DNA of 64,000 nt from Planctomycetota bacterium (GTDB taxonomy: Bacteria > Planctomycetota > UBA1135 > JAKEFM01), in the NCBI GenBank assembly GCA_022616055.1, contig JAKEFM010000223.1, positions 1 through 64,000 on the forward strand, in the 5' to 3' direction. Below the pieces are notes generated by a model. That model was not told the DNA's origin. It did not search any database and saw only the letters and a list, made by a program, of their open reading frames with translations. Numbering within the stretch: position 1 is the stretch's first letter; each line of letters begins with the position of its first letter. This document shows, one piece after another, positions 6,685 to 28,418 of the stretch. Made by a program: the position numbers and the translations under genes.

Positions 6685-7390
6685 CGAGGATGTCGCGGAG
6701 CTCGTGGAAGTTGCGGATCCGGTAGTCGGGCTGGGGGTCGTCGGGGCCGATCTCGAAGCGCCCGGACCGCTGGTGCCAGACCGTCGTCATCCCGATCGCC
6801 CGGCACGGCTCGACGTCGCCGCGCGGGTTGTCCCCGATGTACATCGCCTCCGCCGGCTTCACCCCCGAGTCCTCGCAGGCCCGGGCGTAGAGCTTGGGGT
6901 TGGGCTTGTTGATCCCGATCTGGTCGGAGATGTAGATCGCCCGGCGGTCGAGGAACCCGTAGATCTTGAGGCGGACGAGCTTCTCGGCCTGCTTGACGGC
7001 GAGCCCGGCGGAGATGACGCCGAGGAGGAGGTCGGTCTTCGAGAGGTCGCGCAGCACCTCGTAGACGTCGTCGTAGACCTTGAGCTCGCGCGACTTCGTC
7101 TCGTGGTACGCGACGACGCCGGCCGCGATCAGGATCTCGGGGTTCACCCCCTTCGAGGCCTCGGGACCGAGACGGACGAGGAGCTTGTCGAAGTGGTGCT
7201 CGTAGTTGGAGGAGAACTCCTCGATCACCTCCCGCAGCTCCCGCAGGAGCTCCTCGCGGTCCCCCCTCAGGCCGTGGGCGACCATCGAGTCGATGGCGTT
7301 GCGCCGCGCCGACTCGGCGAACGCGCTCGTCGAGAAGAGCGTGTCGTCGATGTCGAAGAAGATCGCGCGGAGTCGTCCCTTAGCCGTCAA
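6596..7390 (-). CDS. HAD-superfamily hydrolase
   Basis: AIFFDIDDTLFST, GVISAGL, KPNPKLYARA, MYIGDNPRGDV motifs. Confidence 0.88.
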   Translation of the reverse strand: MTAKGRLRAIFFDIDDTLFSTSAFAESARRNAIDSMVAHGLRGDREELLRELREVIEEFSSNYEHHFDKLLVRLGPEASKGVNPEILIAAGVVAYHETKSRELKVYDDVYEVLRDLSKTDLLLGVISAGLAVKQAEKLVRLKIYGFLDRRAIYISDQIGINKPNPKLYARACEDSGVKPAEAMYIGDNPRGDVEPCRAIGMTTVWHQRSGRFEIGPDDPQPDYRIRNFHELRDILVKDFGAELPEPASGPARPARRRSRAKARA

Positions 7391-7514: not shown

Positions 7515-10163
7515 CTACTTCCGCGCGATCTTCTTCGCCTCCTCCTTCACGTCCATGATCCAGGCGCGGATCAGGACGGAGAGGGTCTGGTTCTCGTCGG
7601 AGACCCCCTCCTTCTTGAAGAAGGCGGAGATGAGGGGGATGCGCTCGAGGATCGGCGTGGAGGCGCGGCGCTCGACGTTGTGGACCTGCTTCAGGCCGCC
7701 GATCAGGACGGAACCTCCGTCCGGGATGACGACGGTCGTCGCGGCCGACTGGACCCGCAGCTCCGGGATCTGGAACGTGACGGGGATCGAGAGGCCCGAG
7801 AGGGAGGTCGTGAAGGTCGGGATCGGGCGGAGCAGCGTCGCCACCGTCGGCTGGAGCTCCAGGGTGAGGTACTTCCGGTCGTGGTGGATCGTCGGCGTGA
7901 CCTCGAGGACGACCCCGTCGGGGATCACGTTGATCTGGGGGTCGGCGATGAACGCCAGCTGCGCCACCTCGACGTCGAAGTCCTGGATGTAGCTCGTCTG
8001 GTTGATGACGGTGAGGTAGGCGCGCTGCGTGTTGTGGACGGAGAGGATCTGGCTGTTGACGAGCTGGAAGTTCGCCGTCTTCTCGACCGCGCGGAAGATG
8101 AGGGAGATCTGGGCGTCGTCGAGGAGGGTGAACTGGAAGCTCAGCCCCCCGCGGTTGTTGAGGGTGCGCCCGAGCGGGGTCTCGAAGAAGTTCTCCGTGC
8201 GGCCGCGGAACTCGGAGTCCCCCCCCTCGTTGAAGAAGACGCCGCTCGAGGGGTTGTTCCCCGCTCCCGTCGACAGCCCCGTCCCGTTGTTGTCGAGGCC
8301 GAGGGAGGCCATGTCCTCGAGGCCGTTCGTCACGTCGTCGAGGTTCGCCAGCGTCCCCGTCTCGCCCCCGAGCCCGCGGAAGTCGACGCCGATCTCCTGG
8401 AGGAAGTTCTCGGACACCGTGAGGAACTTCGCCTCGACGGTGACGAGGGAGGCGGTGAAGGTCCGCAGGTCCTGGAGGAACTGGGCGACCTGCCCCTGGA
8501 CCTCGAGGTCGTGGACGACGATGAGGTTGCCGTTGAGCGCGTCGATCGAGTGGCCGTCCCCCTCCCAGGTCCCGGGGGCGAGCGACTCCTTGATGACGGT
8601 GATCAGCTGCTCCGCGTTGACGATCGGGGCCGCCTCCCCCGCCCCGCCGAAGAAGCCCCCCTGCTCCTCGTCCGCGGCGGCGCCCGGGAGCCGGATGTCG
8701 CCGATCTTGGGGCCGAAGAAGGTCGTCAGCCCGAAGACGAGGTCCTGGATGTCGTGGTTGCGGACGACGGGGGTCCCCTTCGCCTTCTCCTTCGTCGTGA
8801 CGAGGATCGCGTCGTGCTTGAAGACGTGGGTGATCTCGCCGCCGGCGTACTCGTAGATGAGGTCGAGGGCGTGCCCGGCGGAGATCGGGTGCTGGATGTC
8901 GAGCTGGAAGGTGACGCTCGCCTCGTCGACCTTCGCGACGGCCGCCGGGTCGACGACGATCGGGAGGCCGGTGATCGTCCGGACGAATCCGACGACGGCC
9001 CCGAGGTTCGTCTCGTCCTTCACCTGGAGGGAGGGGAGCCGCGTCGTGCGGAGCAGGTCCCGGAGCCGCCTGGAGTCCTCCGGCTCGGCCGACGCGATCC
9101 CCGCGACCGCCCGGTCCGCCCGCTTCCGGGAGATCTCCTCCCAGAACTCCTCGTCGGGGAGGGTGAGGAGGTCGGCGTAGGGGATCCGCGCCTCGAGGAG
9201 GTCCTCCCGCCACCGGCGGAAGTGCTCGCGCTTCGCCGCCACGTAGTCGCGCCTCCCCTGGTCGAGGGAGGCCTTGAAGGCGGCCTCGCGCAGCTCCTTC
9301 GCCCGCGGGTTCCTCGGGTCCTCGCGCAGCGCGCGGTCGGCCGCCTCGACCGACTCGCGGTAGCGGCCCGCCTCGAACGCCTGGATCCCCCGCGCGAGGA
9401 TCGTGTCGAACAGCGCCTGGCGCCGGGTGCGCTCGCGGCTCTCCTCCGCCTGCAGCCGCTCGAAGGTCTCGCGCTCGCGGTCGCGCCGGACCCGGTCCTC
9501 CTCCTCCTGCTTGCGCCCCCGCGCCTCCTCGAGGCCCTCGCGCGCCCCCGCCTCGATCTCCGTGCCGGCGAGCCCCGTCGGGGCCCACTTCACGTGCTGG
9601 AGGACGAGGCTGAACTCCTCGATGGAGCGGTCGAACTCCTTCGCCGCGAGGGCGGCCCGCCCCCGCTCGAGGGCCTCCGTCGCCTCCGCGCGCAGCGCCT
9701 GGAGCTTCAGATCCCACTGCTCCTCGAGCTCCTTCTGGACGGTCCGGATCTCCGCCCCCCGCTTGCCGAGGAGGGCGCCGATCTCCTCGAGGAGCTCCCG
9801 CGCCTCGCGGTGGTCGGGGTCGACCTCGAGGGCGGCCGCGGCCGAGCGCTCGGCCTCCTCGAGCCTCCCCTGCGAGCGCAGGTCCCGCGCGAGGGAGAGG
9901 TGGCGCTCGATCAGGACGGTTCGCCGCTGCGCCTCGATCGTCCGCTCCTGCGCCCGGCGCTCGAGGAGCTCGGTGGGGGTCTGCTGCGGGGCGGGCGGGG
10001 CGGGCGGGGCGGGCTCCTGCGGCGGGCTCGCCTCGGCCACGGGGCCGGGCTCCCCCGGCGTCGGCTCCGCGGTCTCCGGCGTGGGGCCTCCGCGGCAGGC
10101 GAACAGGAGCGAGGCGGCCAGCAGGGCCGCGCGGGACGACGACATCCTCGGGCTCGGGCTCAT
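7515..10163 (-). CDS. TPR-containing secretin (GspD/PilQ superfamily), predicted lipoprotein
   Basis: N-terminal LLAASLLFAC lipobox; TPR-like N-terminus; secretin core ...VEAKFLTVSENFLQEIGVDFRGLG... and VVIPDGGSVLIGGLKQ...TPILERIPLISAFFKKE. Confidence 0.88.
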   Translation of the reverse strand: MSPSPRMSSSRAALLAASLLFACRGGPTPETAEPTPGEPGPVAEASPPQEPAPPAPPAPQQTPTELLERRAQERTIEAQRRTVLIERHLSLARDLRSQGRLEEAERSAAAALEVDPDHREARELLEEIGALLGKRGAEIRTVQKELEEQWDLKLQALRAEATEALERGRAALAAKEFDRSIEEFSLVLQHVKWAPTGLAGTEIEAGAREGLEEARGRKQEEEDRVRRDRERETFERLQAEESRERTRRQALFDTILARGIQAFEAGRYRESVEAADRALREDPRNPRAKELREAAFKASLDQGRRDYVAAKREHFRRWREDLLEARIPYADLLTLPDEEFWEEISRKRADRAVAGIASAEPEDSRRLRDLLRTTRLPSLQVKDETNLGAVVGFVRTITGLPIVVDPAAVAKVDEASVTFQLDIQHPISAGHALDLIYEYAGGEITHVFKHDAILVTTKEKAKGTPVVRNHDIQDLVFGLTTFFGPKIGDIRLPGAAADEEQGGFFGGAGEAAPIVNAEQLITVIKESLAPGTWEGDGHSIDALNGNLIVVHDLEVQGQVAQFLQDLRTFTASLVTVEAKFLTVSENFLQEIGVDFRGLGGETGTLANLDDVTNGLEDMASLGLDNNGTGLSTGAGNNPSSGVFFNEGGDSEFRGRTENFFETPLGRTLNNRGGLSFQFTLLDDAQISLIFRAVEKTANFQLVNSQILSVHNTQRAYLTVINQTSYIQDFDVEVAQLAFIADPQINVIPDGVVLEVTPTIHHDRKYLTLELQPTVATLLRPIPTFTTSLSGLSIPVTFQIPELRVQSAATTVVIPDGGSVLIGGLKQVHNVERRASTPILERIPLISAFFKKEGVSDENQTLSVLIRAWIMDVKEEAKKIARK

Positions 10164-10304
10164 GGGGTGGTCCTCGAGGGCTCCTCCCTATCCGGAATCC
10201 GGTCGCGTCGCGGGGTCCTTCAGGGGGCGAGGAGATGGGCAGGGTGACCCGCGGCGAAGGGGAGCACTGTAGGGAACGACCGGCCGGGTGTCAAAAGGGG
10301 GGGG

Positions 10305-10838
10305 TCATCCCCTCTCCACCCCGCCGACGAAGGCGATCTCCTGGAACCCGACCTCCGAGGCGAGGTCGAGGACGCGGACGACCTCCCCGTAGCGCACCCC
10401 CGGGCGCGCGTCGATCGCGCAGGGGCGCGGCCGGCCGTCCTCTCCCGGGGTCACCCTCGCCTGCTCGGCGAGCCAGGAGCGGAGCGTGCCGAGGTCCTCC
10501 GTCGCGCGGGGGCCGAGGGAGTAGCGGAGCACCCGGCCGACGAAGTCGTACGCCCGCCCGTCGCGGGAGGGGTCGTAGGGACGGCCGGGGCTCCCCTCCG
10601 CGACCTTCCTCCCCTCCTCGACGACCTCGATCCGCACCCCGACCTTCTCGAGCGGCCCGGCGGCGACCGCGCCGCTCCCGACGTCGCGCGGGAGGTGGGC
10701 GCTCAGCTTCCCCTCGAGGGTCTGGAAGCGCAGCGTGCAGAGGAAGAAGACGAGGAGCTGGAAGGTGACGTCGATCATCGGCGTCGTCTGGAGGGGGACC
10801 TCGCGCTCGGAGACCTCCCGGTTGATCGCGGCGGTCAC
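10305..10838 (-). CDS. ExbD/TolR-family biopolymer transport protein (copy 1)
   Basis: VPLQTTPMIDVTFQLLVFFLCT TM helix with conserved Asp; HLPRD. Confidence 0.85.
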   Translation of the reverse strand: MTAAINREVSEREVPLQTTPMIDVTFQLLVFFLCTLRFQTLEGKLSAHLPRDVGSGAVAAGPLEKVGVRIEVVEEGRKVAEGSPGRPYDPSRDGRAYDFVGRVLRYSLGPRATEDLGTLRSWLAEQARVTPGEDGRPRPCAIDARPGVRYGEVVRVLDLASEVGFQEIAFVGGVERG

Positions 10839-10841
10839 GGC

Positions 10842-11339
10842 CTAGCGCCCCTCCTCCCTCCCCTCGGCGGCCGCCAGCTCGACCTTCCAGATGCGCACCC
10901 CCTCGCGGGCGCACCACTCGAGGACCCGCTGGACGTGGGCGAAGGGGACGTTGCGGTCCGCCCGTACGAGGAGGGGCTCGTCGGGGATCTCCCGCCGGGC
11001 GACCTCGTCGTACCGGCGCGGCATCGCCCGGGCCCACCGGGCGAGCTGCTCCTGCACCTCCCGGGGGTCGCGCAGCCGCGGGTCCGCGCTCGTCGGGTCG
11101 TAGGTGAGGCGGCGGCGGATGAAGACGCGCCCCTCGTGGTCCACGTTGAGGATGGGGCGCTTCGTCGCCGGCTCGTCCGGCACCGCCGCGCGCGCGGGGG
11201 GGAGCTCGAGGCTCTCGAGCTCCTTCTGCCCCATGTCGATCGTGACGATGAAGAAGATGATCAGCTGGAAGCAGCAGTCGATCATCGGGGTCATGTTGAT
11301 CCCGAGGTCGAGGTCGATCGAGCGGCGGGGGGCGGGCAC
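10842..11339 (-). CDS. ExbD/TolR-family biopolymer transport protein (copy 2)
   Basis: GTG at 11339; INMTPMIDCCFQLIIFFIVT; RADRNVPFAHVQRVLEWC. Confidence 0.85.
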   Translation of the reverse strand: MPAPRRSIDLDLGINMTPMIDCCFQLIIFFIVTIDMGQKELESLELPPARAAVPDEPATKRPILNVDHEGRVFIRRRLTYDPTSADPRLRDPREVQEQLARWARAMPRRYDEVARREIPDEPLLVRADRNVPFAHVQRVLEWCAREGVRIWKVELAAAEGREEGR

Positions 11340-11350
11340 CCGGAGGCTCC

Positions 11351-12085
11351 CTACCCCTTCGCGACCCGGAGGCGCTCGAGGAGGTCGACGGCGAGATCCC
11401 CGACCTCGATCGAGAGGCGGGTCACCCGGTTGCGCATCTGGGCGAAGACCGCCGTCACGGGGATCGCGACGAGGAGGCCGAAGAGCGTCGTCAGGAGCGC
11501 GACGGCGATGTCTCCGGCGAAGTCGGCGGGGTTCGCCTGGCCCCGCTTCGCCGCGATCACGTTGAACGCCCCGATCATCCCCTGGACCGTCCCGAGGAGG
11601 CCGAGCATCGGGGCGATGTTCGCGTGCACGGAGAGCCAGCCGACCCGCTGGTGGAGACGGATCGACTCCGCCTCGAGGGCGTCGGCGCTCGCCTTCTCGA
11701 TCGCCTCGTGGGGGTGGCCCGCCTTCGCCAGGCCGGCCGCGACGACGTTCGCGAGGAAGGAGGGGCGGTCCGCGCACAGCTCGAGCGCCTCCCGCACCGC
11801 CTTCTCGTCGAGGAGGGCGTGGAGCTCCTCGAGGAGGTCCGGGGGGGCGAGCTTCTCCCGGCGGATCGTCATCGCCTGCTCGAGGGCGATCGCCCCGACG
11901 AGGACCGACTGGGCGACGATCAGCATCCCGATCACGCCGGAGGCCCGGATCCACCCCCACACCGAGTGGGTCCACGCGAGCGGATCCCTCGCCGCCTCGG
12001 CCTCCTCCTGCGCCAGGGCGCCGCCCGCTGCGAGGGCGAGGAGGAGGGCGGCCGGGAGGAACGGCGAGCGGGCGAGTCGTCTCAT
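11351..12085 (-). CDS. MotA/TolQ/ExbB proton-channel family protein
   Basis: Signal peptide; APMLGLLGTVQGMIGAFNVIA...AVALLTTLFGLLVAIPVTAVFAQMRNRV. Confidence 0.92.
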   Translation of the reverse strand: MRRLARSPFLPAALLLALAAGGALAQEEAEAARDPLAWTHSVWGWIRASGVIGMLIVAQSVLVGAIALEQAMTIRREKLAPPDLLEELHALLDEKAVREALELCADRPSFLANVVAAGLAKAGHPHEAIEKASADALEAESIRLHQRVGWLSVHANIAPMLGLLGTVQGMIGAFNVIAAKRGQANPADFAGDIAVALLTTLFGLLVAIPVTAVFAQMRNRVTRLSIEVGDLAVDLLERLRVAKG

Positions 12086-12119
12086 CCTCCGCTCCTTCCC
12101 GCGCGAGTGGGGACGGGGC

Positions 12120-13184
12120 TCACTCGCCGAGGGCGCGGCGGGCCTTCCCGGCCCAGGGGGAGGAGGGGTGGCGGTTCGCGACCTCGGCGAGGTAGGCCCG
12201 CGCGAGGCGCTCGGCGTCGGGCTCCTCCCCGGAGAGACGGCGGTGGCACTCGGCGAGGAGGTAGGTCGCGCGCGGGACCGAGGGGAGGCCGGCGGGCCCC
12301 GTCGCCCGGGCCTCGGCGAGGGCGTAGATCGCCTCCCGCACCCTCCCGGCGGCGAGGAGCGCCTCCCCCTCGCCGGCCCGCGCGGTCGCGCGCGGCGCGA
12401 ACGCGCTCCCCGCCTCGGCGAGGAGGCCGCGGAAGTGGGAGAGCGCCTCGGCGGCGCGCCCCTCCGCGAGGAGACAGTCCCCCTGCGCGGCGCGCACGCG
12501 CGCGAGGAGGGGGGAGGGCGCGGGGATGCGCGCCTCGAGCGACCCGAGGGTTCTCCGCGCCTCCCCGGCCCGACCCGCGGCGAGGAGCGTCTGCGCCTTC
12601 TCGAAGTCGGCCTCGAGCTGCGCCTCTTCCCCTAGGAGGGAGACGCCCCCGCCCGCCTCCCCGAGGAGGGCGAGAGCCTCGTCGTGGCGCTGGAGGCTCC
12701 GCAGGCACCGGGACCGGCCGAGGAGGGCCGCCGGGAATCGCCGGCTCGAGGCGTGGGCCTCGGCGAACGCCCGGTAGGCCTCCGCCGCCTCCGCCGTCTT
12801 TCCCTCAACGGTCGCTCCCCACGCCTCGAGGAGCCCGGCGGACTCGAACGCGACCTCCTCCCGCAGCCAGGGACGCACTCCCCTCGCCTCGAGCGCCGCG
12901 GCGAGCGCGCGGGAGGCGGCGGCGAACTCGCCCGCCGCGCGCCTCTCGCGCGCGCGGCGGAGGGCCGGCGGCTCGTCCCGCCACTCGATCCTCAGGACCT
13001 GCGAGGCGGGGAGGACCCGCTCGCTCCCCCCCGCGCGGTAGCGCACCCCCGCGAGGGCGTCGGCGAGGACCTCCTCCACGCCGAGGCGCGAGCCGGTCAC
13101 CGTCACGATCACGTCCCGGCGGCCCCCGGGGCCCGAACCGTCCGGTGAACAGGTCGCGAGGAGGAGAGGGACGAGGGGGATCAT
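12120..13184 (-). CDS. TPR-repeat protein, predicted lipoprotein
   Basis: MIPLVPLLLATCSPDG lipobox-like start; helical TPR-like body. Confidence 0.7.
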   Translation of the reverse strand: MIPLVPLLLATCSPDGSGPGGRRDVIVTVTGSRLGVEEVLADALAGVRYRAGGSERVLPASQVLRIEWRDEPPALRRARERRAAGEFAAASRALAAALEARGVRPWLREEVAFESAGLLEAWGATVEGKTAEAAEAYRAFAEAHASSRRFPAALLGRSRCLRSLQRHDEALALLGEAGGGVSLLGEEAQLEADFEKAQTLLAAGRAGEARRTLGSLEARIPAPSPLLARVRAAQGDCLLAEGRAAEALSHFRGLLAEAGSAFAPRATARAGEGEALLAAGRVREAIYALAEARATGPAGLPSVPRATYLLAECHRRLSGEEPDAERLARAYLAEVANRHPSSPWAGKARRALGE

Positions 13185-13257
13185 CCTCTCGATCCCCGGC
13201 GTCCCGGGCTCGGCGCGCCGGGCGCGGGGAGAGGGGGGGATTGTAGGGAGGAGGGGC

Positions 13258-16257
13258 TCACCTCGTCCGATCCATCAACCAGCGGAACCGCGCCGCCGCC
13301 TCGGGGCCCGCGATCGACTCGCCGAGGTCGGGGGCCTGGGAGGCGAAGGCCTCCAGGCTCGAGCGGAGCCGGCGCCCCTGCGCGGGGTCGATCCGGCTCC
13401 ACCTGTGGAGCATGTAGAGGTGCCCGAAGAGGAGATCGAAGAACTCGGCGTCCCGCCACGCTTCGCGGTGGGAGGCGAGGAGCTCGAGCCAGAGGCGGTT
13501 GCACTCCTCGAACTTCGGGGCGCTCGGCGGGACGCCCGGAGGACCCGGCTCGCCCTCCTCCTCCGCCGTGCCGGCGACCTCCACGAAGGGGGGGCGCGTC
13601 CCCCGCAGGTGGCCCCCGAGGCAGCGGGCCAGCAGCAGCTGGGTCTCCCTCGTCCGGCGCTCCGCGAGGACCTCCCGAAGCTCCTCCTCCGCCTTCGCGA
13701 GCCTCCCCTGCGCGAAGAGACAGCGCGCGTGCGCCTCTCGCAGCGCGGCGCGGCGGCCCTCCGCCTCCGGGTCGTCGGCGAACGTCCCGAGGATCGCCTC
13801 GTACAGGGCGCGCGGCCGGTCGAAGTCCCCGGCCCCGCGGCTCGCGAGCTCGAACCAGAGGTCCGCCTCCTTGCGCCAGTTGCGGAACGAGGGCTTCGCG
13901 GTCGAGTTGTAGAGGGAGAGGACCTCCGCCGCCTCCCGGAGCGCGGCCGTGAGGGCCTCCTCGGAGGAGCCGGGCGCTCGCTCCGCCTCCCGCGCGACGA
14001 GCACCTTCTCTTCCAGGGCGGAGAAGACCCTCGCCGCGGCGAGCCCCGTGAACCGGTCCTCTGCGAACCGATCCCGCATCGAGGAGAGGACCCCCTTCGC
14101 CGCCTCGAGGTCCCCGGCCCCGACGTGGGCGACGACGAGCCCGTAGTGGATCCGGGGGTGGTACTCGGAGCGCTCGGGGTGGAGCTCGAGGGCGCGCTCG
14201 AGGAGGGGGACCGCCCGCTCGAAGCCCCTCGCCCGCGCCGCCGCATCGCCCTGCGCCTCCGCCTCCCGCAGGGCGAGGGTCGCGGAGAAGAAGTCCGCCT
14301 CCGCCTGCGCCTCCTTCCGCCGGGCGATCGCGGCCGGGTCGGTGCGGGCGTTCCGGGGATCCTCGACCCGTCGCCGGAACTCGTCGAAGTGGCGCCTCGC
14401 GACCGCGAGGTCCGCGCTCCCGCAGGCGATCACCCCCTTGCGGGCGAGGGCGCGCTCGTACCACTCGCTGTCGGGACCGATCCGCTCGAGGCGGGCGAGC
14501 GCCTCCGCCGACTTCGCCCGCGCCCCCTCGGCATTCCCCTCCTCCTGGAGCGCGAGGGCCTCCTCCCGGAGTCGGACCGCCTGCCGCCACAGGAGGGTGT
14601 CGGCGGAGCCGCCGCGAGAGAACTTCGTGACCTCTTGCTCCGCCTCGGCGAGCAGGGCGCGGGGCGCCTCGTCGTTCCTCCCCGGCCCGCCGCGGCGGAT
14701 CGCCAGCATCGCCCGGTGGAAGCCGTCGGCGTTCCGCTCCGCCGTGGAGGGCTCGGCGGCGAAGTCGCGGGCGCCCATGCGGTACGCCATCGCCGCCTCG
14801 TGGGGCTGGCCGAGGGCCTCGAAGGCGCGGCCGAGGAGGAGGCAGGCCCGTCCTCCGTGCGTCGCCCGGTCGGCCTCCCCGCGCATCTCGCCGAGCGCGC
14901 GGCGGAGGAGCGCGAGCGCGTCATCGGGCTTGCGCAGGCGAAGCTCCCCCTCCGCCGCCGCCAGGAGAACCTCCGGATCGAATCCCCCGCCGGACGCAGC
15001 GATCTCGGCGAGGAAGGCCTGCGCCCGCAGCTCGAGGGTCGTCCGGGGGTTCTCGCGAAGCACGCGCAGCGCCAGCCGGAGGGCCTCCGTCGCGTCCCCC
15101 TCCTCGAGGAGGGAGCGCGCCCCCTCGAGGAGGGCGAGGTATCCCTGGACGCTGGGGGAGCGATCGCCCTCCCGCTCCATCCACTCGAGGAGGCGCCGCC
15201 TCCAGCGCCCCGCCCCCTCCGCGTCCCCCTCGCGATTCGAGAGCGCGAGCGCGATCGCGAAGGCCTCCTCCGTCCTCTCCCGGCGGAACCCCTTCCCCTC
15301 TTCCCCCTCCTCGACCGCGACCTCGCGGAGGACCTCGGGATCCTGGGGGAGGGCGTGCTCCATGACCCACTCGCAGAGCGAGAGGGCGGTCTCGAGCCGC
15401 TCCCGGCGCTCCCGCTCCTCCGACTCGCTCCTGGCCGCCTCGCGGGCGAGCTCCCCGTTCGTCCGGGCGAGGAGGAGGCACCCGAGGAGGCCGAACCACG
15501 AGCCCTCGCCCGAGGAGAGGAGGTAGTCGTTCATCACCCCGGCCGCCGTCCGCAGGTCGTCGGCCCGACGAGACGACCCGAGCGGCGCCGCCGCGCCCCG
15601 GTCGTGGTACGCCTTCCCCTTCACGTACCACGCGCGGAAGAAGGCGACGCGCTGCTCCTCCGACCTCTCTCCCTCCGGGACTTCCTCGATCGCCGCGACG
15701 ACGCGGCTCGCCTCCCGCACGGCGATCGCGAAGGAGGCGTCGGCGGCGGCGACGAGCGCCGCGCGCGGGTCCCCTGGCGGCTCTCCACCCGGGTCCTCCC
15801 GGAGGATCTCCGCCACCTCCGCCTCGATCCCGGCCGTGGGGGGATCTCCCTCCTCGGAGCGCTGGACCTCCTCTGCGAGGAACCGGCCGCGGGAGGCGGC
15901 GACCTCGGCGCAGTCGAGGCGCGCCGGGAGAGTCGCGGTCGTGCCGCCGTGGCGGGAGAGGAACGCCTCGAGCTTCCGGACGGCGAGCGACTGGAACTCG
16001 AGGCGACGCCCGCGGTCGAGTTCCCGCTCGGCGGCGAGCTTGAGGATTCCGCACGAGGCGAGGGCGACCCTGCGCTCCTCCTCCGCGGGGAGGCCCTGGC
16101 GGAGGAGCCTCTCGAGCCTCTCCGAGGCGAGGTCGTGGTAGCCGAGCTCCGAGACGAGAGCGCGGGCGAACGCGATCTCGTCCTCGACGGAGGACCCGGG
16201 GAGAGCCGGCGCCTGCCCGCCGGCGGAGAGGAGGAGGAGAAGCGCGAGGAGCGGCAC
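13258..16257 (-). CDS. Large exported TPR-repeat protein (about 999 aa)
   Basis: Likely GTG start at 16257 followed by signal peptide VPLLALLLLLSAGGQAPALP; many TPR-like helices; the ORF upstream of this start overlaps the divergent gene and is not credible. Confidence 0.72.
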   Translation of the reverse strand: MPLLALLLLLSAGGQAPALPGSSVEDEIAFARALVSELGYHDLASERLERLLRQGLPAEEERRVALASCGILKLAAERELDRGRRLEFQSLAVRKLEAFLSRHGGTTATLPARLDCAEVAASRGRFLAEEVQRSEEGDPPTAGIEAEVAEILREDPGGEPPGDPRAALVAAADASFAIAVREASRVVAAIEEVPEGERSEEQRVAFFRAWYVKGKAYHDRGAAAPLGSSRRADDLRTAAGVMNDYLLSSGEGSWFGLLGCLLLARTNGELAREAARSESEERERRERLETALSLCEWVMEHALPQDPEVLREVAVEEGEEGKGFRRERTEEAFAIALALSNREGDAEGAGRWRRRLLEWMEREGDRSPSVQGYLALLEGARSLLEEGDATEALRLALRVLRENPRTTLELRAQAFLAEIAASGGGFDPEVLLAAAEGELRLRKPDDALALLRRALGEMRGEADRATHGGRACLLLGRAFEALGQPHEAAMAYRMGARDFAAEPSTAERNADGFHRAMLAIRRGGPGRNDEAPRALLAEAEQEVTKFSRGGSADTLLWRQAVRLREEALALQEEGNAEGARAKSAEALARLERIGPDSEWYERALARKGVIACGSADLAVARRHFDEFRRRVEDPRNARTDPAAIARRKEAQAEADFFSATLALREAEAQGDAAARARGFERAVPLLERALELHPERSEYHPRIHYGLVVAHVGAGDLEAAKGVLSSMRDRFAEDRFTGLAAARVFSALEEKVLVAREAERAPGSSEEALTAALREAAEVLSLYNSTAKPSFRNWRKEADLWFELASRGAGDFDRPRALYEAILGTFADDPEAEGRRAALREAHARCLFAQGRLAKAEEELREVLAERRTRETQLLLARCLGGHLRGTRPPFVEVAGTAEEEGEPGPPGVPPSAPKFEECNRLWLELLASHREAWRDAEFFDLLFGHLYMLHRWSRIDPAQGRRLRSSLEAFASQAPDLGESIAGPEAAARFRWLMDRTR

Positions 16258-16402
16258 GCGAAGGGCGCGGAGGAGTAGCGTCCCTCCTCCGGGCTCGGGG
16301 AGGAGAGCGCCCCCGAGTCTCTCCCTAGTCGCCGAGGCGGGGAAGTTTCGCGTTCCCCCGAACCGTCGGCCTCCCCGCGCCGTTGATCCGCGCCGGCCTC
16401 GA

Positions 16403-16435
16403 GGACCCCGGTCCGAGGGGAAGGTCCCGTGGCCC
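16403..16435. promoter_or_regulatory. GGACCCC...GGTCCCG inverted-repeat element upstream of toroid gene 1
   Basis: GGACCCCGGTCCGAGGGGAAGGTCCCGTGGCCC about 65 nt before ATG 16478; related element before toroid gene 2. Confidence 0.35.
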
Positions 16436-16477
16436 GCGATCCGCTCCCCTCGGAAGCGCAGCCACCTCCTCGTCCTC

Positions 16478-18115
16478 ATGAACAACTCGAGCGATCGACC
16501 GGAGTCCGTCGCGCCCGGGACCGGAGCGCCCTCTCCGCCGTTCTTCCGGACCCTCGTCCGCAACGCGCCGTGGACCATCATCGCGGGGATGATCCACGTC
16601 GTCCTGATCGCGGTGCTGAGCGTGATCTACGTCGCGCACGTCCGCAGCAGGGAGGAGGCGAGGCCGACCACCGTCGCGATCCGCGAGGTCCGCGACGAGC
16701 CGGTGATCCCCCCCGTCGAGCCCCCCGAGAGCTTCAAGCGCGACGCTCTCCCGAAGCTCGCGGAGAAGAGTCTCGACCCCACCCCGCCCGTCGAGGACCC
16801 CTTCCTCGAGTTGGGGAAGGTGCTCCCCGAGGACCAGGTCTTCGAGGACGCCACGGTGAACGAAATCCGCGGGGACCCGACCGCGCTCGATCTCATTCTC
16901 CCCCCCGGCGACACCACCGGGGGGACGCCGATCGGAGTCGGCCGCATCGGGCGCTACGGGACTGGAATCCCCGACTCGATGGGGATCGGGAAGGTCGGAT
17001 CGCCCTACGGCGACCGCGACGGGGGGCAGCAGAGGGCCCGCAGGACTTGGCGAGGAGTCGAGACCGAGGGGCCGCTCGAGGACGCCCTCGAGTGGCTGAG
17101 GAAGCACCAGGACCCCGGAGGGAGGTGGGACTGCGATGGGTTCTCCAAGCACTGCAGGCAGAACACGTGCGACGGGCCCGGCGAGGGGCTCCACGACATC
17201 GGGGTCACAGGCCTCGCCCTCCTCGCCTTCCTCGGGGACGGCAACACGCTCAACACCGGACGCTACCGCGCCGTCGTCGCGCGGTCGGTCAAGTGGCTGA
17301 TCAACCAGCAGAACCGGGAGAACGGGCTCCTCGGTGATCCGGCCGGTCAGGCCTACCTCTACTCGCACGCGATCGGCACGCTCGCCCTCTGCGAGGCCTA
17401 CCATCTGAGCGGCAGGCCGGCGGCCCTCCGGGAGCCTGCGCAGCGCTCGCTCAACCTGATCCTCGCCTCGCGCAACCCCTACAAGGCCTGGCGCTACAGC
17501 CACCTCCCGAACGGGGACAACGACACCTCGGTGACCGGGTGGATGGTCTTCGCGCTCAAGGCGGGGGAGGAGGCGGGGCTGAACATCGACAAGACCGCCT
17601 ACGACGCGGCGCTCGCCTGGTTCGACGAAATGACCGACATGCAGACGGGCCGGTGCGGCTACCAGCAGAAGGGGGAAGCCTCCTCGAGGCGCACCGGGTC
17701 CGAGAAGCGCTTTCCGCAGGAGAAGACGGAGTCCCTCACGGCCGTGGCGCTGCTGTGCCGCTTCTTCCTCGGCCAGACGCCGGACAGGGTGCCGACGATG
17801 CGGCTGCACGCCGACCGGCTGCGCAAGACCCTCCCGGTCTGGGAGGTGACTCCGGAGCGCTCCCTGGTGGACGAGTACTACTGGTACTACGGCACCTTCG
17901 CGATGTTCCAGATGGGGGGGGAGGACTGGAAGCTCTGGAACGGGGCGATGAAGAAGGCGATCGTCGAGCACCAGCGGCAGGGGGGGGACGAGAACGGGTC
18001 GTGGGACCCCGTCGGCGCGTGGGGGAAGGACGGGGGCCGCGTGTACATGACCGCGATGAGCGCCCTCTGCATGGAGGTCTACTACCGATACGTGAGGGTC
18101 CTCGGGGGGCGGTAG
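16478..18115 (+). CDS. TonB-like membrane-anchored prenyltransferase/squalene-oxidase-repeat (alpha-toroid) protein, copy 1
   Basis: N-terminal TM WTIIAGMIHVVLIAVLSVIYVAHV, Pro/Glu-rich linker, then toroid repeats (ALEWLRKHQDPGGRWDCD; DTSVTGWMVFALKAGEEAGL; MTAMSALCMEVYYRY). Confidence 0.85.
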   Translation: MNNSSDRPESVAPGTGAPSPPFFRTLVRNAPWTIIAGMIHVVLIAVLSVIYVAHVRSREEARPTTVAIREVRDEPVIPPVEPPESFKRDALPKLAEKSLDPTPPVEDPFLELGKVLPEDQVFEDATVNEIRGDPTALDLILPPGDTTGGTPIGVGRIGRYGTGIPDSMGIGKVGSPYGDRDGGQQRARRTWRGVETEGPLEDALEWLRKHQDPGGRWDCDGFSKHCRQNTCDGPGEGLHDIGVTGLALLAFLGDGNTLNTGRYRAVVARSVKWLINQQNRENGLLGDPAGQAYLYSHAIGTLALCEAYHLSGRPAALREPAQRSLNLILASRNPYKAWRYSHLPNGDNDTSVTGWMVFALKAGEEAGLNIDKTAYDAALAWFDEMTDMQTGRCGYQQKGEASSRRTGSEKRFPQEKTESLTAVALLCRFFLGQTPDRVPTMRLHADRLRKTLPVWEVTPERSLVDEYYWYYGTFAMFQMGGEDWKLWNGAMKKAIVEHQRQGGDENGSWDPVGAWGKDGGRVYMTAMSALCMEVYYRYVRVLGGR

Positions 18116-18172
18116 TCGACCGGAGGCCCCCCCGAACCCGCGACCCCTCCGCTCCGTTGTTCCGGTCCGCGC

Positions 18173-18205
18173 GGGGACCCCGCCCGAGGGAGGGTCCCGC
18201 GGGCC
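18173..18205. promoter_or_regulatory. GGGACCC...GGGTCCC inverted-repeat element upstream of toroid gene 2
   Basis: GGGGACCCCGCCCGAGGGAGGGTCCCGCGGGCC; 7-bp perfect arms, about 70 nt before ATG 18251. Confidence 0.35.
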
Positions 18206-18250
18206 AACCTTGCCCTCTCCTCGGGCGTCCCGGTACCCTTCCTACCTGCC

Positions 18251-19888
18251 ATGAATGCGCCGAACGAACGACCGGAGTCCGTCGAGCCGGGGACCGAGGC
18301 GCCGTCTCCGCCGTTCCTCCAGACCGTCGTCCGCAACGCGCCGTGGGCCATCATCGCGCTGATGATCCACGTCGTCCTGATCGCGGTGCTGAGCGTGATC
18401 TACGTCGCGCACGCCCGCAAGAAGGAGGAGCTGACGGCGACTTCCGTCGCGATCAGCCAGCCCCGCAACGAGGAGGACCTCGCCCCCGTCGAGCCCCCGC
18501 CGATCATCGAGCGCAACGCGATCCCGAAGCTCGCGGACACGAACCTCGACCCGACGGAGAGCATCAAGGACGTCTTCCTCGAGCCCGGGAAGGTCATCCC
18601 GGAGAACGAGGTCTTCGACGACGCCACGGAGAACGACCTGCGCGGCGATCCCACCGCCCTCGACCTGAACATCCCGCGCGGCGACACGACCGGCGGCACG
18701 GCGGCCGGCGTCGGGACGGTCGGGCACTACGGGACGGGGATCCCCGACACGGTGGGAGGCTCGAAGGTCGGCTCGAGGTACGGCAGCCGGTTCGGGGGGA
18801 AGCAGGGAGCCCGCGGGACCGGCGGGGGATCGGGGACGGAGCAGTCGCTCCGGGACGCCCTCGAGTGGCTGAGGAAGCACCAGGACCCCGACGGGAGATG
18901 GGACTGCGACGAGTTCTCGAAGCACTGCAAGCAGAACACCTGCGACGGGGCCGGGGAGGGGCTCCACGACATCGGGATCACCGGCCTCGCCCTCCTCGCG
19001 TTCCTCGGGGACGGCAACACGCTGCAGGTCGGGCCCTACCGCGCCGTCGTCGCGCGGTCGGTCAAGTGGCTGATCGCCCAGCAGAACCGGGAGAACGGGC
19101 TCCTCGGCGAGCCGGCCGGGACGAGCTACCTCTACTCCCACTCGATCGGGGCGCTGGCGCTGTGCGAGGCCTACAGCCTCAGCAACAAACCGGCGGCCCT
19201 GCGGGAGCCGGCGCAGCGCGCGATCAACCTGATCCTCGCCGCGCGCAACCCCTACAAGGCCTGGCGCTACAACTATCCGCCGAACGGGGACAACGACACC
19301 TCGGTGACGGGGTGGATGGTCTTCGCCCTGAAGGCGGGAGAGGAGGCGGGGCTCAACATCGACAAGACCGCCTACGACGCCTCGCTCGCCTGGTTCGACG
19401 AGATGACCGACCTGCAGACGGGTCGGTGCGGCTACCAGCAGAAGGGGGAGGCCTCCTCCCGGCGCACGGGCTCGGAGAAGCGCTTCCCGCAGGACAAGAC
19501 CGAGTCCCTCACGGCGGTGGCTCTGCTCTGTCGCTTCTTCCTCGGCCAGACGCCGGAGAAGGTGCCGACGATGCGGCTGCACGCCGACCGGCTGCGCAAG
19601 ACCCTCCCGGTGTGGGAGGTGACGCCCGAGACCTCCCTGATCGACGAGTACTACTGGTACTACGGCACCTTCGCGATGTTCCAGATGGGAGGGGAGGACT
19701 GGAAGCTCTGGAACGGGGCGATGAAGAAGGCGATCGTCGAGCACCAGCGGCACGGGGGGGACGAGAACGGGTCGTGGGACCCGATCGGCGCGTGGGGGAA
19801 GGACGGCGGGCGGGTGTACATGACGGCCATCGGCGCCCTCTGCCTGGAGGTCTACTTCCGCTACGCGAAGGTCCTCGGGGCGCGGTAG
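18251..19888 (+). CDS. TonB-like membrane-anchored prenyltransferase/squalene-oxidase-repeat (alpha-toroid) protein, copy 2
   Basis: Same 545-aa length and architecture as copy 1 with long identical blocks, e.g. FFLGQTP(D/E)(R/K)VPTMRLHADRLRKTLPVWEVTPE. Confidence 0.85.
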   Translation: MNAPNERPESVEPGTEAPSPPFLQTVVRNAPWAIIALMIHVVLIAVLSVIYVAHARKKEELTATSVAISQPRNEEDLAPVEPPPIIERNAIPKLADTNLDPTESIKDVFLEPGKVIPENEVFDDATENDLRGDPTALDLNIPRGDTTGGTAAGVGTVGHYGTGIPDTVGGSKVGSRYGSRFGGKQGARGTGGGSGTEQSLRDALEWLRKHQDPDGRWDCDEFSKHCKQNTCDGAGEGLHDIGITGLALLAFLGDGNTLQVGPYRAVVARSVKWLIAQQNRENGLLGEPAGTSYLYSHSIGALALCEAYSLSNKPAALREPAQRAINLILAARNPYKAWRYNYPPNGDNDTSVTGWMVFALKAGEEAGLNIDKTAYDASLAWFDEMTDLQTGRCGYQQKGEASSRRTGSEKRFPQDKTESLTAVALLCRFFLGQTPEKVPTMRLHADRLRKTLPVWEVTPETSLIDEYYWYYGTFAMFQMGGEDWKLWNGAMKKAIVEHQRHGGDENGSWDPIGAWGKDGGRVYMTAIGALCLEVYFRYAKVLGAR

Positions 19889-19899
19889 TCGAGCACGGG

Positions 19900-22791
19900 A
19901 TGGCGACCCTCCGCGCGCCCGACCGGCGCCGAGCCCTGCTGTGTCGCGGGACCGCCCTCTTCGCCGCGTGGGTCGCGTCCGGCGCCCCCGCGCTCGGGCA
20001 GAGCGCCCGGATCCTCGGCCGCGACGACGCGGAGTTCGCCCGCCTCCTCCTCGAGGCGAACTATCCCGACCTGGCGCAGGGGCTCCTCGCCCTCCTCGAG
20101 AAATCGGCCAAGCCCGGCGCGACCGGGACGGCCGGGGCGGAGGCGGCCAAGCTCGACCTGCGCCTCGAGCTCGCCCGCCAGGAGCCCGACCTCGCGAAGC
20201 GCTCGGACCTGATCGGGAGGGTCCTCGAGGACCGGCAGGTTTTCCTGCGCCAGCACGCCGGCACCCCCGAGGCGGAGGCGGTCTGGATCGGGCTCCCCGA
20301 GGTCTTCGGGCGGCTCGCCGAGGTCCTCGCCGCGCTCCTCGAGAAGGAGAGCGACCCGGTCGCGCTCGAGCGGATCCGGGGCCGCTTCGGGAATTCCTTC
20401 GTCGACTACGAGGCCGAGCTGCGGGACAGGATCGCCGCCCTCGAGATCGACCGGGCGGCGGACCCGGAGGGGGAGGCCGAGCGGCAGTACATGATCGCCT
20501 CCTTCAACCTCGGGCGGATCTACTTCCATCACGCGCGCCTCTACCCCCCGGAGAACCCCCTCCACCTCGACCTCCTCCGGCGGACGATCGACGCCTACCA
20601 GCAGTTCAGCATCGAGTACAGCGACCGGCTCCTCGCCTTCGAGGGGTTCCTCTACCAGGGGCTCGCGCTGAAGGAGCTCGGGCGGCTCGACGAGGCGCGC
20701 AAGTGCCTCGACGACGCGATCGGGCTGCGGGAGACCTACGAGCGGGACGTGAAGGGGGTCTACCTCCTCCCCCCCGAGGCGGCCGACATCGTCGTCGCCG
20801 CCTTCCTCCAGAAGGTCCTCCTCCTCTCGGAGAACAAGGACTACGCGGCGGTGTCGCTCGTGGCGAAGGAGTTCCTGAGGTGCGTGCCCCGCCCCCTCTC
20901 CACGCCGACGGGGCTCGCCGTCCTCGGCGCCCAGGCGAGGGCGCAGGTCGACGCGGGGGACACGGCGGGTGCGACGGAGACGGCGCGGGCGCTCCTCGCC
21001 GCCGATCCGAGGGGCCCCTGGGGGGCGCTCGGCCGCGACATCCTGGGGGGGAACGTCATGACCCCGGGGCCGGGGAAGGGGCTGCGCCTCGAGGAGACGC
21101 TCGAGATCGCGAAGTCCCTCGCGAGCCAGGGGGAGTACGACAAGGCGATCGCCGTCTGCCACCAGCTCCTCGCGAGCGCGCGCGGCGCCGAGAAGGAGGC
21201 CGACTTCGGGGCCGAGGCGTTCCACCTCGTGGGGATGATCTACGCCACCCGCAACCTCCTCGCCGAGGCCTCCGTCGCCTTCGACGCGGCCGTCCAGCGC
21301 TATCCCAAGGGGGAGAAGGCCTCCGACGCGCTGTACGGGGGGATCCGCTGCTACCAGAGGCTCAACGCCCAGGAGAAGCGCCCCTTCTACAAGCGCCGGA
21401 TGGAGGAGCGGATGCGCGAGCTCGCGACGAAGTACCCCGAGAGCCCCTTCGCCGCCTCGGTCCAGCTCGTCGAGGCGCAGGACCTCGAGGACGCGGAGGA
21501 CTTCGCCGGGGCCGTGGCGCTCTACGAGAAGATCCGGCCGGGCTCCGCCGCCTACGAGGAGGCGCAGTACCGGGCCGGGAGCGGCTACGCCAAGATCGGC
21601 CGCCGCGCCTTCGCCGAGGGGAAGAAGGAGGAGGCGCGCGCCCAGTTCGCGAAGGGGGAGGCGCTCCTCAAGAAGGCGATCGCCGAGCTCGACTCCGCGC
21701 GCACGAGGACCGTCGACTCGCGGCGCCTCGCCCTCCTCGGGGAGATCGCCTTCGCCGCGCGCCTCTCCCTCGCGGGGCTCCTCCTCCACGAGGGGGTCGC
21801 GCGCGGGTCCGACGCGATGCCGGTCCTCGACGCGGCCGAGGAGCGCGCGGGGACCGACGCGGAGAAGCTCGCCTCGGTCTGGGGGATGCGGATCAAGGCG
21901 TTCGAGGCGCAGGGGAAGCTCGACGACGCCGCGAAGCTCCTCGACGGGCTCCTCCAGAAGAACCCGGACACCCGGGGCCTCGGGGCCGCCGCGAGCGCGA
22001 TCGGGAGGGCCTTCGACGTCCGCTCGGCGGAGGAGAGGGCGAAGGACCCCAACTCCCCCGTCGCGCAGGACCTTCTTCGGAAGGCGGCGCGCTACTACGG
22101 CCTCGGCGCGAAGTCCCTCGCCCGGGGCGAGGAGGTCGTCCGGACGGAGGACCTCGAGGAGATCGCGAAGCGCCTCTTCGCGATCGCCCTCCAGTTCAAC
22201 GAGGTCCCGGACAGCGCCGGGGGGACCTTCGTCAACTGGCAGGCGACGGGCCGCAAGGCGCCCGAGCCCTGGGAGCAGGCGGCCCTCCTCTTCGAGGCGG
22301 CGGTGAGCCGAAGCCCCTCCCACCGTCCCCGGCTGAACCTCGGGCGGTGCTACGGGTTCCTCGGCCGGTGGAGGGAGGCCGCGCGCGTCTACGCGGAGCT
22401 GTTCGAGCACGAGCCGCTCGTCGACCGGGAGGCCCGGCGGCTCGATGCGGGGGTCCTCCGCGCGAAGCCGGAGCTCCTCCCGGCCTACCTCGAGTGGGGG
22501 GTCGCGGAGCACCGCTCCGGCGTCTCGGACGGGGACGCCGACGGCTTCCGGCGCGCCTCCGAGATCTACACGCTCCTGTGCTCGAATCTCCCGGAGGGGC
22601 ACCCGATGTGGTGGGAGGCGAAGTACCTCCAGATCCGCGTCCTCGTCGACCAGGGGGACTACGCGCAGGCCGAGTTCCTCCTGCGGGACCTCAAGCGCAG
22701 CACCGGGGAGTTCCCCCCGGGGTGGAAGGAACGCTTCCGGGCCGTCGAGGAGGAGCTCTCGGGGAAGGTCTTCCGCCAGAACCCGAAGTAG
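19900..22791 (+). CDS. Large exported TPR-repeat protein (about 963 aa)
   Basis: MATLRAPDRRRALLCRGTALFAAWVASGAPALGQ signal peptide; TPR-like repeats; N-terminal similarity to the 13258-16257 product. Confidence 0.78.
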   Translation: MATLRAPDRRRALLCRGTALFAAWVASGAPALGQSARILGRDDAEFARLLLEANYPDLAQGLLALLEKSAKPGATGTAGAEAAKLDLRLELARQEPDLAKRSDLIGRVLEDRQVFLRQHAGTPEAEAVWIGLPEVFGRLAEVLAALLEKESDPVALERIRGRFGNSFVDYEAELRDRIAALEIDRAADPEGEAERQYMIASFNLGRIYFHHARLYPPENPLHLDLLRRTIDAYQQFSIEYSDRLLAFEGFLYQGLALKELGRLDEARKCLDDAIGLRETYERDVKGVYLLPPEAADIVVAAFLQKVLLLSENKDYAAVSLVAKEFLRCVPRPLSTPTGLAVLGAQARAQVDAGDTAGATETARALLAADPRGPWGALGRDILGGNVMTPGPGKGLRLEETLEIAKSLASQGEYDKAIAVCHQLLASARGAEKEADFGAEAFHLVGMIYATRNLLAEASVAFDAAVQRYPKGEKASDALYGGIRCYQRLNAQEKRPFYKRRMEERMRELATKYPESPFAASVQLVEAQDLEDAEDFAGAVALYEKIRPGSAAYEEAQYRAGSGYAKIGRRAFAEGKKEEARAQFAKGEALLKKAIAELDSARTRTVDSRRLALLGEIAFAARLSLAGLLLHEGVARGSDAMPVLDAAEERAGTDAEKLASVWGMRIKAFEAQGKLDDAAKLLDGLLQKNPDTRGLGAAASAIGRAFDVRSAEERAKDPNSPVAQDLLRKAARYYGLGAKSLARGEEVVRTEDLEEIAKRLFAIALQFNEVPDSAGGTFVNWQATGRKAPEPWEQAALLFEAAVSRSPSHRPRLNLGRCYGFLGRWREAARVYAELFEHEPLVDREARRLDAGVLRAKPELLPAYLEWGVAEHRSGVSDGDADGFRRASEIYTLLCSNLPEGHPMWWEAKYLQIRVLVDQGDYAQAEFLLRDLKRSTGEFPPGWKERFRAVEEELSGKVFRQNPK

Positions 22792-22817: not shown

Positions 22818-23885
22818 CTACTTCGGTGCGAGCGGATCGGTCTCAGGCTTGTCCCGCCCCCGCTCGTCGACCAGGGTCGAGGAGAGGGTGAACGTCTTCC
22901 ACTTCGCGGGATCGTCCTTGATCCGGTTGAAGACCTCGATCCACGCCTTCGCGACGTGCCGGTTCCACTTCGCCGAGTCCGGGTCGGTCTTGCTTCGGAA
23001 CTGGAAGGTCTTCCCGCCCGCCAACTCCTCGAGCATCCGGTTGACCGCGTAGCCGGTCTCGACGTCGGGGGCCTTGTCGTAGTCGAGGCTCTTGAGGGCG
23101 TTGAGGATCGCGGGGAAGGCGGGCTTCCCGATCGCGATGAGGCGCACGCGCGCCCGGCTCCCCTTGGCGCCGCTGTAGGGGTCGATCACGGCGGCGAGGG
23201 CGTCGCGGATCTCCTTCTCCAGCTCCGCCGGCGTGTCCTTCAGGGTGGGGACGTCGGGGATCGTCGAGAGGTCGATCTCCGGCAGGATCCGCTCGGCGGG
23301 CTTGGAGGCGGCTGCGACGGTCGGGTCCGCCACCACCTTCTCCCCTCCTTCAACCGCCGGGGGGCTCGCGGCGGCTCCCGTGCCGGACGGCTTCCCCGCC
23401 GCAGGTGACGGCGGCGGGGGGGCGGGGGGCTTCGCGGCGGCGGCGAGGGGGGGAGGGGAGGCCGCGGGGGCGGCGGGGCGCTCCGCGACCGGTCCGGCCG
23501 GCGGCTTCGCCGGCGACGCGGTCCCCTCGGAGGAGTCCTTCCCCGAGATGAGGATCAGGAGGAGGATCGCGACGGCGCCGGTTGCCGCCACCGAGACCCA
23601 CATCCCGGTCGCGGCCCGGTTGCGGCGCGAGGAGCCCGCCTGGACGGCGATCGCGCGGTGGCCGCTCCCCCGGGCGGGGGGCCGAGCGGGGGGCGGGGAG
23701 GCGGGCGCAGCGCCGCGAGCGGCCGGACGGGGAGCGCTCGTCCCGGCGCCCACCGCGGGTTGCGAGGGCGCCTCGGAGACCTCCAGGGTCCCTCCGCACT
23801 TCGGACACCGCGGGGAGGTCCCCGGGGCGGTCGCGCCGAGGCGGAACCTCGAACCGCATCCGCTGCAGGTGCCGATGCTCGTCAT
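22818..23885 (-). CDS. Zinc-ribbon, single-TM protein with C-terminal helical domain
   Basis: CSGCGSRFRLGATAPGTSPRCPKCGG; TM WVSVAATGAVAILLLILIS; conserved-looking C-terminus. Confidence 0.6.
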   Translation of the reverse strand: MTSIGTCSGCGSRFRLGATAPGTSPRCPKCGGTLEVSEAPSQPAVGAGTSAPRPAARGAAPASPPPARPPARGSGHRAIAVQAGSSRRNRAATGMWVSVAATGAVAILLLILISGKDSSEGTASPAKPPAGPVAERPAAPAASPPPLAAAAKPPAPPPPSPAAGKPSGTGAAASPPAVEGGEKVVADPTVAAASKPAERILPEIDLSTIPDVPTLKDTPAELEKEIRDALAAVIDPYSGAKGSRARVRLIAIGKPAFPAILNALKSLDYDKAPDVETGYAVNRMLEELAGGKTFQFRSKTDPDSAKWNRHVAKAWIEVFNRIKDDPAKWKTFTLSSTLVDERGRDKPETDPLAPK

Positions 23886-27684: not shown

Positions 27685-28418
27685 CTCGGCCCCGACCCGA
27701 GGAGGGGGACATGCGCCTCGAGGAGGGCGCGAACCCGGTCCGGGCCTCCCCCCGCGGGGTCGGCGACGAGCTGGAGGCGGTCCGGGAGGAAGAAGGGACC
27801 TCTCTCCCGCCGGCCCACGAGGGCCTGGTACGCCTCCGCATGCACCGCCACCGGGGCCGCGTACTGGATCCGGACGCGCACGCGACGGTTCCCGGCCTCG
27901 CCCGGGACCTCCCGAGCCCGATCCGGGAAGACGAGGAAGTCGAAGTCGGCCACCCCTTTCCCGGCGAGCGTCTCGAGGAGGGAGGAGGCGAGCCGGAGCT
28001 TGCGCCAGGCGAGAAGGTTCTCCTCGGCGGAGGGGGCCCTCCCCTCCCGTTCCCAGTCCTCCTCGGGCAGGAGGTGGCCGAGGAGCTGCTCGGGGAGCCT
28101 CGGCCGGGCGAGCGCCCCGAGGATCCGCCGGCGCTCCTCCCGGAGGTCCTCCGGCGCCCGCGGCGTCTCGGCGAGGGCGCCGGCGAGGAAGCCCGCCGCC
28201 TCGAGCCGCCGCCGCCTCCAGTCGGCCGCATCCTCCGCGTCCTCCCCCGTCTCGGCGGGGATGCGCGCGAGCCCCTCCTCGGCGCTCTCCAGGACCTCGC
28301 GCGCCTCCCCGAAGGCCACGCGCGCCCCGAGGGCGTTCGGCGCGGTCCGGACCGCGAAGAGGGCGAAGCACCCGAGGGCGATCCCCCCGACGAGCGTCCG
28401 GACGGGCCTCGGGCTCAT
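27681..28418 (-). CDS. PilO/GspM-like membrane protein (positional call)
   Basis: N-terminal TM, coiled-coil-like helices, small C-terminal domain; ATGA overlap with the PilM-N gene. Confidence 0.5.
   Translation of the reverse strand: MSPRPVRTLVGGIALGCFALFAVRTAPNALGARVAFGEAREVLESAEEGLARIPAETGEDAEDAADWRRRRLEAAGFLAGALAETPRAPEDLREERRRILGALARPRLPEQLLGHLLPEEDWEREGRAPSAEENLLAWRKLRLASSLLETLAGKGVADFDFLVFPDRAREVPGEAGNRRVRVRIQYAAPVAVHAEAYQALVGRRERGPFFLPDRLQLVADPAGGGPDRVRALLEAHVPLLGSGPR

Follow-up and report, generated by a model that had tools for sequence, protein, structure and literature searches.

Force transducers other than TonB have been described in PVC and other bacteria, where the vWA proteins of Williams-Jones et al. 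(2025) act as non-TonB transducers on a TPR-tolQ-tolR-tolR motor (PMC12204202). According to the same study, SHLS is the motor-binding site in cryo-EM of TonB and TolA; its main text does not mention a toroid or a secretin (PMC12204202). In ExeA/ExeB (GspA/GspB), a secretin is acted on by a TonB-like protein (PMC4098917). A literature search, mostly of open-access work, returned no account of toroid transducers, or of a cassette combining ExbBD with a secretin, in Planctomycetes, and a paper on crateriform structures and fibres in this group makes no mention of secretin, TonB or ExbB. The secretin assembly factors ExeA/ExeB form a peptidoglycan-binding complex that is not known to have an ExbBD-type motor; the toroid tip described below is unrelated to theirs. 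The Agl-Glt gliding motor of Myxococcus, which combines a single TolQ-like subunit with two that are TolR-like and has TPR proteins as partners, is likened to the present locus by description only.

The DNA analysed here (the window) is a stretch of 64,000 nucleotides from a Planctomycetota bacterium (GCA_022616055.1, contig JAKEFM010000223.1). An earlier note, made from the letters of this stretch, had described a divergent run of TPR, ExbB, ExbD, secretin and toroid genes at 7515-22791, and this gene content and order have been borne out by coordinates, Pfam matches and third-position GC (0.93-0.99), all genes being present at or near these positions. On the minus strand, a long TPR protein of 999 aa (T9; 13258-16257; TPR_19 1.8e-13) is followed by a short TPR protein (T4; 12120-13184; TPR_16 1.6e-12), an ExbB/TolQ-like channel protein with a signal-peptide-like N-terminus (11351-12085; PF01618 2.8e-26), two different ExbD/TolR-like proteins and a TPR-lipoprotein secretin; the positions of both TPR genes are conserved. 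ExbD 1 (10842-11354; PF02472 4.1e-17) has a GTG start and overlaps the ExbB gene by 4 bases, and ExbD 2 lies at 10305-10838 (PF02472 5.5e-12). The secretin at 7515-10163 (secretin 2) has a lipobox-like N-terminus (...SLLFACRGG) and consists of a TPR N-terminus, N-domains and a secretin domain (PF00263 3e-20, with TPR matches). The 999-aa frame starts with GTG at 16257; with the alternative ATG at 16479 it would run into toroid 1. The plus strand of this region carries toroid 1 (16478-18115), toroid 2 (18251-19888) and a second long, T9-like TPR protein of 963 aa (19900-22791; TPR matches on the frame from 19924), which scores 804 bits against the T9 family model, of which it is itself a seed.

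The locus extends beyond 7515-22791. Secretin 1 (24039-26651, minus strand; PF00263 1.5e-25) is a TPR lipoprotein and a paralogue of secretin 2, with 32% identity, and it matches the Amuc_1098 family NF042912 at 4.6e-33, under the cut-off. A protein with a PilM domain and a C-terminal TM region, which may be a PilM-PilN fusion, is encoded at 28415-29968 (minus strand; PF11104 9.5e-9). Between these two are genes for small membrane proteins on the minus strand: a candidate PilP/GspC-like protein with one N-terminal TM helix in its translation (26716-27684) and a candidate PilO-like single-TM protein from the gene call (27681-28418), and Pfam searches of both products gave no match. At the other end, a HAD-family hydrolase gene (6596-7390, minus strand; TIGR02253 2.1e-53), found in most of 80 named loci, closes the conserved cassette. 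Outside the window, gene boundaries were taken from a simple gene caller based on codon usage and from HMM matches to stop-to-stop frames. Other genes were seen in passing. The gap between secretin 1 and the TPR gene of the plus strand holds a gene for a zinc-ribbon protein with one TM helix (22818-23885, minus strand). A further zinc-ribbon/TM protein comes after the ExbBD genes in L012 (L012:15326-16819) and has no significant sequence match to the former. A uracil-DNA glycosylase is encoded at 30082-30897 (minus strand; PF03167 1.7e-39), and by eye such genes precede secretin 1 also in L219, L221, L238 and L243. A large serine/threonine-kinase-like protein with a TM helix was recognized by eye at 43132-47571 (minus strand).

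The toroid proteins are 79% identical to each other and share one layout, which is a cytoplasmic tail, a TM helix with His40, a Gly/Pro/acidic linker and an alpha-toroid domain (toroid 1 by family HMM, 2e-183, and TM alignment; toroid 2 by the family profile). From single sequences the assignment of the alpha-toroid is weak, since a domain search of toroid 1 gave no toroid-fold match and toroid 2 matched SQHop_cyclase_C at 3.8e-5, below the cut-off. As a family profile, which matches squalene-hopene cyclase in the PDB at 3.8e-18, the sequence-based assignment is firm. A model made from the two window sequences is poor (mean pLDDT 41); at this low confidence it contains a TM helix, a disordered linker and about 13 helices, and its fold matches are transcobalamin, complement C5 and a terpene cyclase, none of which reaches E 0.001 and all of which we take to be of the alpha-toroid type. 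Searches of toroids 1 and 2 for TonB_C at E 0.05 and of the window toroids for vWA gave no match, and the DxDDT motif of the squalene-hopene cyclases occurs in 0/80 anchored toroids. Homologues were found in 123/150 sampled genomes of the phylum by a single-protein search and in 124/150 by profile at 1e-60, both counts including toroids without a TM anchor.

Among 80 anchored toroids from 65 loci, a His is present in the TM helix in 75 and a Ser four residues before it in 71; eight have Ala instead of this Ser, including both window toroids, which read Ala-xxx-His40. The His and Ser columns of the TM core are polar in 97% and 89% of the sequences, and the remaining columns in at most 4%, or 15-19% near the periplasmic end. 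At the position that matches the Leu of SHLS (His+7) the residues are hydrophobic, in most cases Leu, Met or Phe; the final Ser of the motif shows no conservation. Five of the 80 proteins lack the His, two of them in ExbB-linked loci (L051 and L094). The SxxxH motif is also kept in 5/5 propeller-TM-toroid fusions encoded beside ExbB-ExbD. These fusions (L011:10452-14423, L141, L149, L153 and L163) join a PD40 propeller, SxxxH TM helices, a long linker and a toroid, and lie beside TPR-ExbB-ExbD; the propeller was recognized by Pfam only in L163, and a PDZ domain follows the toroid in L153. Together, the near-invariant TM His, the lack of TonB_C and the cyclase profile match uphold the claim of the earlier note that the toroid proteins have a TonB-like layout in which an alpha-toroid replaces the TonB C-terminal domain. 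An SHLS-type TM helix, a disordered linker and a globular tip unrelated to TonB_C are likewise features of the vWA transducers (PMC12204202), whose TPR-tolQ-tolR-tolR neighbors are matched in the window and in the context A loci. In contrast to the vWA transducers, the tip is an alpha-toroid, two TPR-lipoprotein secretins are part of the cassette, and the toroid is often encoded away from the motor. As candidate transducers, the toroids would be a sister class to the published vWA proteins, and the idea of a non-TonB transducer is already known.

The motor genes are related to tolQ and tolR. The best NCBIfam match of ExbB is TolQ (7.6e-19, 68 of 221 bits) and that of ExbD 1 is TolR (8e-10, 39 of 127 bits), both far under the curated cut-offs; by that test they are therefore relatives and not orthologues of TolQ and TolR. 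A pair of channel Thr residues and a proton-path Asp are established functional residues in ExbB/ExbD and TolQ/TolR. Both Thr residues are kept among the fetched relatives of ExbB (T165 in 98/99 and T199 in 97/99), and the Asp is kept in 212/215 members of the ExbD family. The motor family, the TM His and the disordered periplasmic linker are shared with the Ton system (TonB-ExbB-ExbD), whereas the toroid system differs in lacking the TonB C-terminal domain, in having two different ExbDs and in being separate from a Ton-like locus on contig C319 of the same genome. This locus (L013:7770-10362) is by eye an ordinary-looking TonB-ExbD-ExbB locus adjoining a large TonB-receptor-like gene, and the genome of the window probably has a classical Ton system besides. 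A vWA-like protein was seen by eye directly after the ExbB gene in another genome (L157:1704-4124, G012) and perhaps belongs to the published vWA transducer class.

The conserved neighborhood of the motor in Planctomycetota is a cassette of the order secretin-TPR-TPR-ExbB-ExbD-ExbD-secretin-HAD, with a sulfatase before the second secretin in some loci. The same gene order as in the window is found at the ExbB loci of genomes in which the toroid is encoded elsewhere; in the window, two toroid genes and a TPR gene are inserted within the cassette. A scan of named genomes with the secretin profile gave 80 loci, some cut by contig ends and some from genomes present in both sets, among which the cassette from secretin to secretin is complete in 39 and ExbB is present in 47; the ExbBD-TPR-secretin neighborhood is conserved in Planctomycetota. 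The complete genome of Saltatorellus ferox Poly30, a strain named in PMC10896814, carries the full cassette and two SxxxH toroids. In some lineages (L219, L221, L228, L237, L238 and L243) the secretin pair has no recognizable ExbB-ExbD between its members, and some of these pairs keep the long TPR gene only. A model of secretin 2 built from 31 sequences with AF2 (mean pLDDT 70) has a beta domain besides its TPR region and N-domains, and its significant fold matches are secretins, BfpB first, except for one TPR protein near the threshold. No TonB-dependent outer-membrane transporter was noticed within the cassette.

The linkage between toroid and motor genes is recurrent and not general. ExbB lies near 6/60 anchored-toroid loci, with about 1.4% expected per locus (binomial 1.9e-4; the distance of 10 kb was our choice, and contig ends truncate several of the 60 loci). 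In the genome of the window, three of four anchored-toroid loci lie beside one of its four ExbB genes, for which the chance is ~1e-5, and the fourth locus ends at a contig edge. In a toroid tree (FastTree, midpoint rooted), ExbB-linked proteins fall in at least three places, namely the window pair, L061/L066/L094 and L012/L049/L050/L051. The remaining 54/60 anchored-toroid loci have no ExbB within about 9 kb. Many of the other anchored toroids have mfd- and PpiC-like (peptidyl-prolyl-isomerase-like) genes nearby, named by sequence inspection; a large cluster of antisense ORFs was set aside in the neighbor clustering. Unanchored toroids have ExbB near 0/20, and the difference between anchored and unanchored proteins is not significant (p 0.33). 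With these two results, adjacency was dropped as the sole criterion for coupling between toroid and motor. With ExbB away from most anchored toroids, the coupling would usually be in trans.

At the level of whole genomes, the secretin (A2) and toroid (A4) profiles at 1e-60 are found together in 113 of 150 genomes, with 12 having the secretin only, 11 the toroid only and 14 neither (Fisher 9e-7); counted by family, the figures are 62/5/4/4 (p 0.006). Stricter cut-offs gave a stronger association (79/3/8/60). As three cut-off pairs were compared and the thresholds track relatedness to the seeds, only the loosest result should be weighed, and the test is confounded by relatedness. Two genomes, G007 and G080, have a secretin-ExbBDD core in which no anchored toroid was found; both TPR genes were unrecognized there too. 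The conserved co-occurrence that had been expected is seen, with this confounding, in the 150 genomes and not among gene neighbors, where anchored toroids are found mainly without ExbBD and secretins, an outcome that the earlier note had named as refuting its idea. For the central claim of the earlier note, that the toroid is a force transducer coupling ExbBD to the secretin and TPR proteins, the TM His and the repeated, above-chance ExbBD linkage speak in favor, and the 54 unlinked loci speak against.

The motif and the cassette are conserved across the compared sequences, the motor residues are intact and the linkage is repeated; the docking, force, target and purpose of the toroid machine are what we infer. 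The locus may encode a proton-driven trans-envelope machine, in which the ExbB/TolQ-like channel and the two different ExbD/TolR-like subunits would form an inner-membrane motor of the 5:2 type, as homology suggests. The toroid would dock on the side of this motor via its single TM helix and conserved His, like TonB and TolA, the disordered acidic, Gly/Pro-rich linker would carry motion across the periplasm, and the alpha-toroid would be the gripping tip that replaces the TonB/TolA C-terminal domain. The likeliest target would be the co-encoded outer-membrane module of TPR-lipoprotein secretins and soluble TPR proteins, and a pull on the secretin pair would assemble, position or gate it. Judged by comparison, the toroid proteins are probably motor-coupled transducers. 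That the secretin/TPR module is their target is a tentative reading, slightly short of even odds, suggested by gene order, the conserved cassette and the genome-level co-occurrence. The whole reading, a toroid transducer driven by a TolQR-type motor and acting on the secretin/TPR module, is the best explanation, and we give it about an even chance. As its purpose we favor gating or assembly of the secretin pair, with outer-membrane tethering and service to an ATPase-driven system as the main alternatives.

In the second of these alternatives, an ordinary type IV pilus or type II secretion system, powered by an ATPase and with its other genes elsewhere, would have the cassette as its outer-membrane part. 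The motor, the TPR proteins and the toroid would then only aid secretin assembly through the peptidoglycan, in the manner of ExeA/ExeB, or the toroid would be uninvolved. The likeness to the outer-membrane complexes of such systems (PilM-Q, GspD and the Amuc_1098 locus) lies in the secretin domain, the N-domains and the PilM beside secretin 1, which resembles the Amuc_1098 type IV pilus secretin; by coordinates from genome searches compared by eye, the window and 13 other genomes have PilM upstream of a secretin at a distance of no more than about 3 kb. The TonB-like ExeB of Aeromonas, which binds the secretin ExeD (PMC4098917), also fits. T2SSE-family matches number 7-17 per genome in 11/11 genomes searched, and among the genomes compared G012 alone has T2SSE close to the cassette, some 5.5 kb from PilM, so an ATPase-driven system could use these secretins from elsewhere; a T2SSE search of the window's contig (C102) gave no match. 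The fusion of TPR to the secretin, the ExbBDD motor within the cassette and the near absence of T2SSE around it set the locus apart from these systems, and we know of no ordinary secretin system with an ExbBDD motor. We consider this explanation rather unlikely.

Outer-membrane tethering would make the locus a stand-in for Tol-Pal, in which the TolQ/TolR-like motor and the toroid pull on outer-membrane TPR lipoproteins and so tether the outer membrane or constrict it, as in budding, and the secretins are anchors and not gates. The best matches of the motor proteins to TolQ and TolR agree with this, as does the short TPR protein, which is weakly CpoB/YbgF-like (TIGR02795 YbgF 5.7e-10); all of these scores, however, are under the curated cut-offs. 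TolB_N was not found in 24/25 genomes, the window's included, and its sole match reached 22.7 bits against a cut-off of 22.4; the secretins and the cassette, moreover, are very widespread. The stand-in leaves the two paralogous secretins and PilM unexplained and is judged unlikely. No TolA C-terminal domain was recognized, which is a further difference from Tol-Pal itself, and the lack of TonB_C in the toroids and of TolB_N in these genomes agrees with the proposal that the system is distinct from canonical Ton and Tol. A role of the toroids as enzymes or binding proteins anchored in the membrane, to which ExbBD is close by coincidence, is highly improbable; the family does resemble terpene cyclases and most anchored toroids are not beside ExbB, but this would give no role to the near-invariant buried His and Ser of the TM helix, the ExbB linkage recurs in the toroid tree, and DxDDT is lacking from all 80 proteins.

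The motor-driven toroid transducer remains the preferred reading, and it points to a so far undescribed route by which energy would cross the cell envelope in Planctomycetota. The lack of TolB in most genomes of this phylum that were checked raises the question of how energy from the inner membrane is coupled to the outer membrane in these bacteria. The strongest form of the reading is doubtful, if possible: a widespread Planctomycetota machine in which a PMF motor mechanically drives outer-membrane secretins via an alpha-toroid transducer, replacing a cytoplasmic ATPase or alongside one. Saltatorellus ferox Poly30 offers a named strain in which the cassette and two toroids are present in a complete genome. 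Should the toroids prove to be force transducers, non-TonB tips would form a family that extends beyond vWA, and the conserved motor-plus-secretin cassette would become a direct genetic target.
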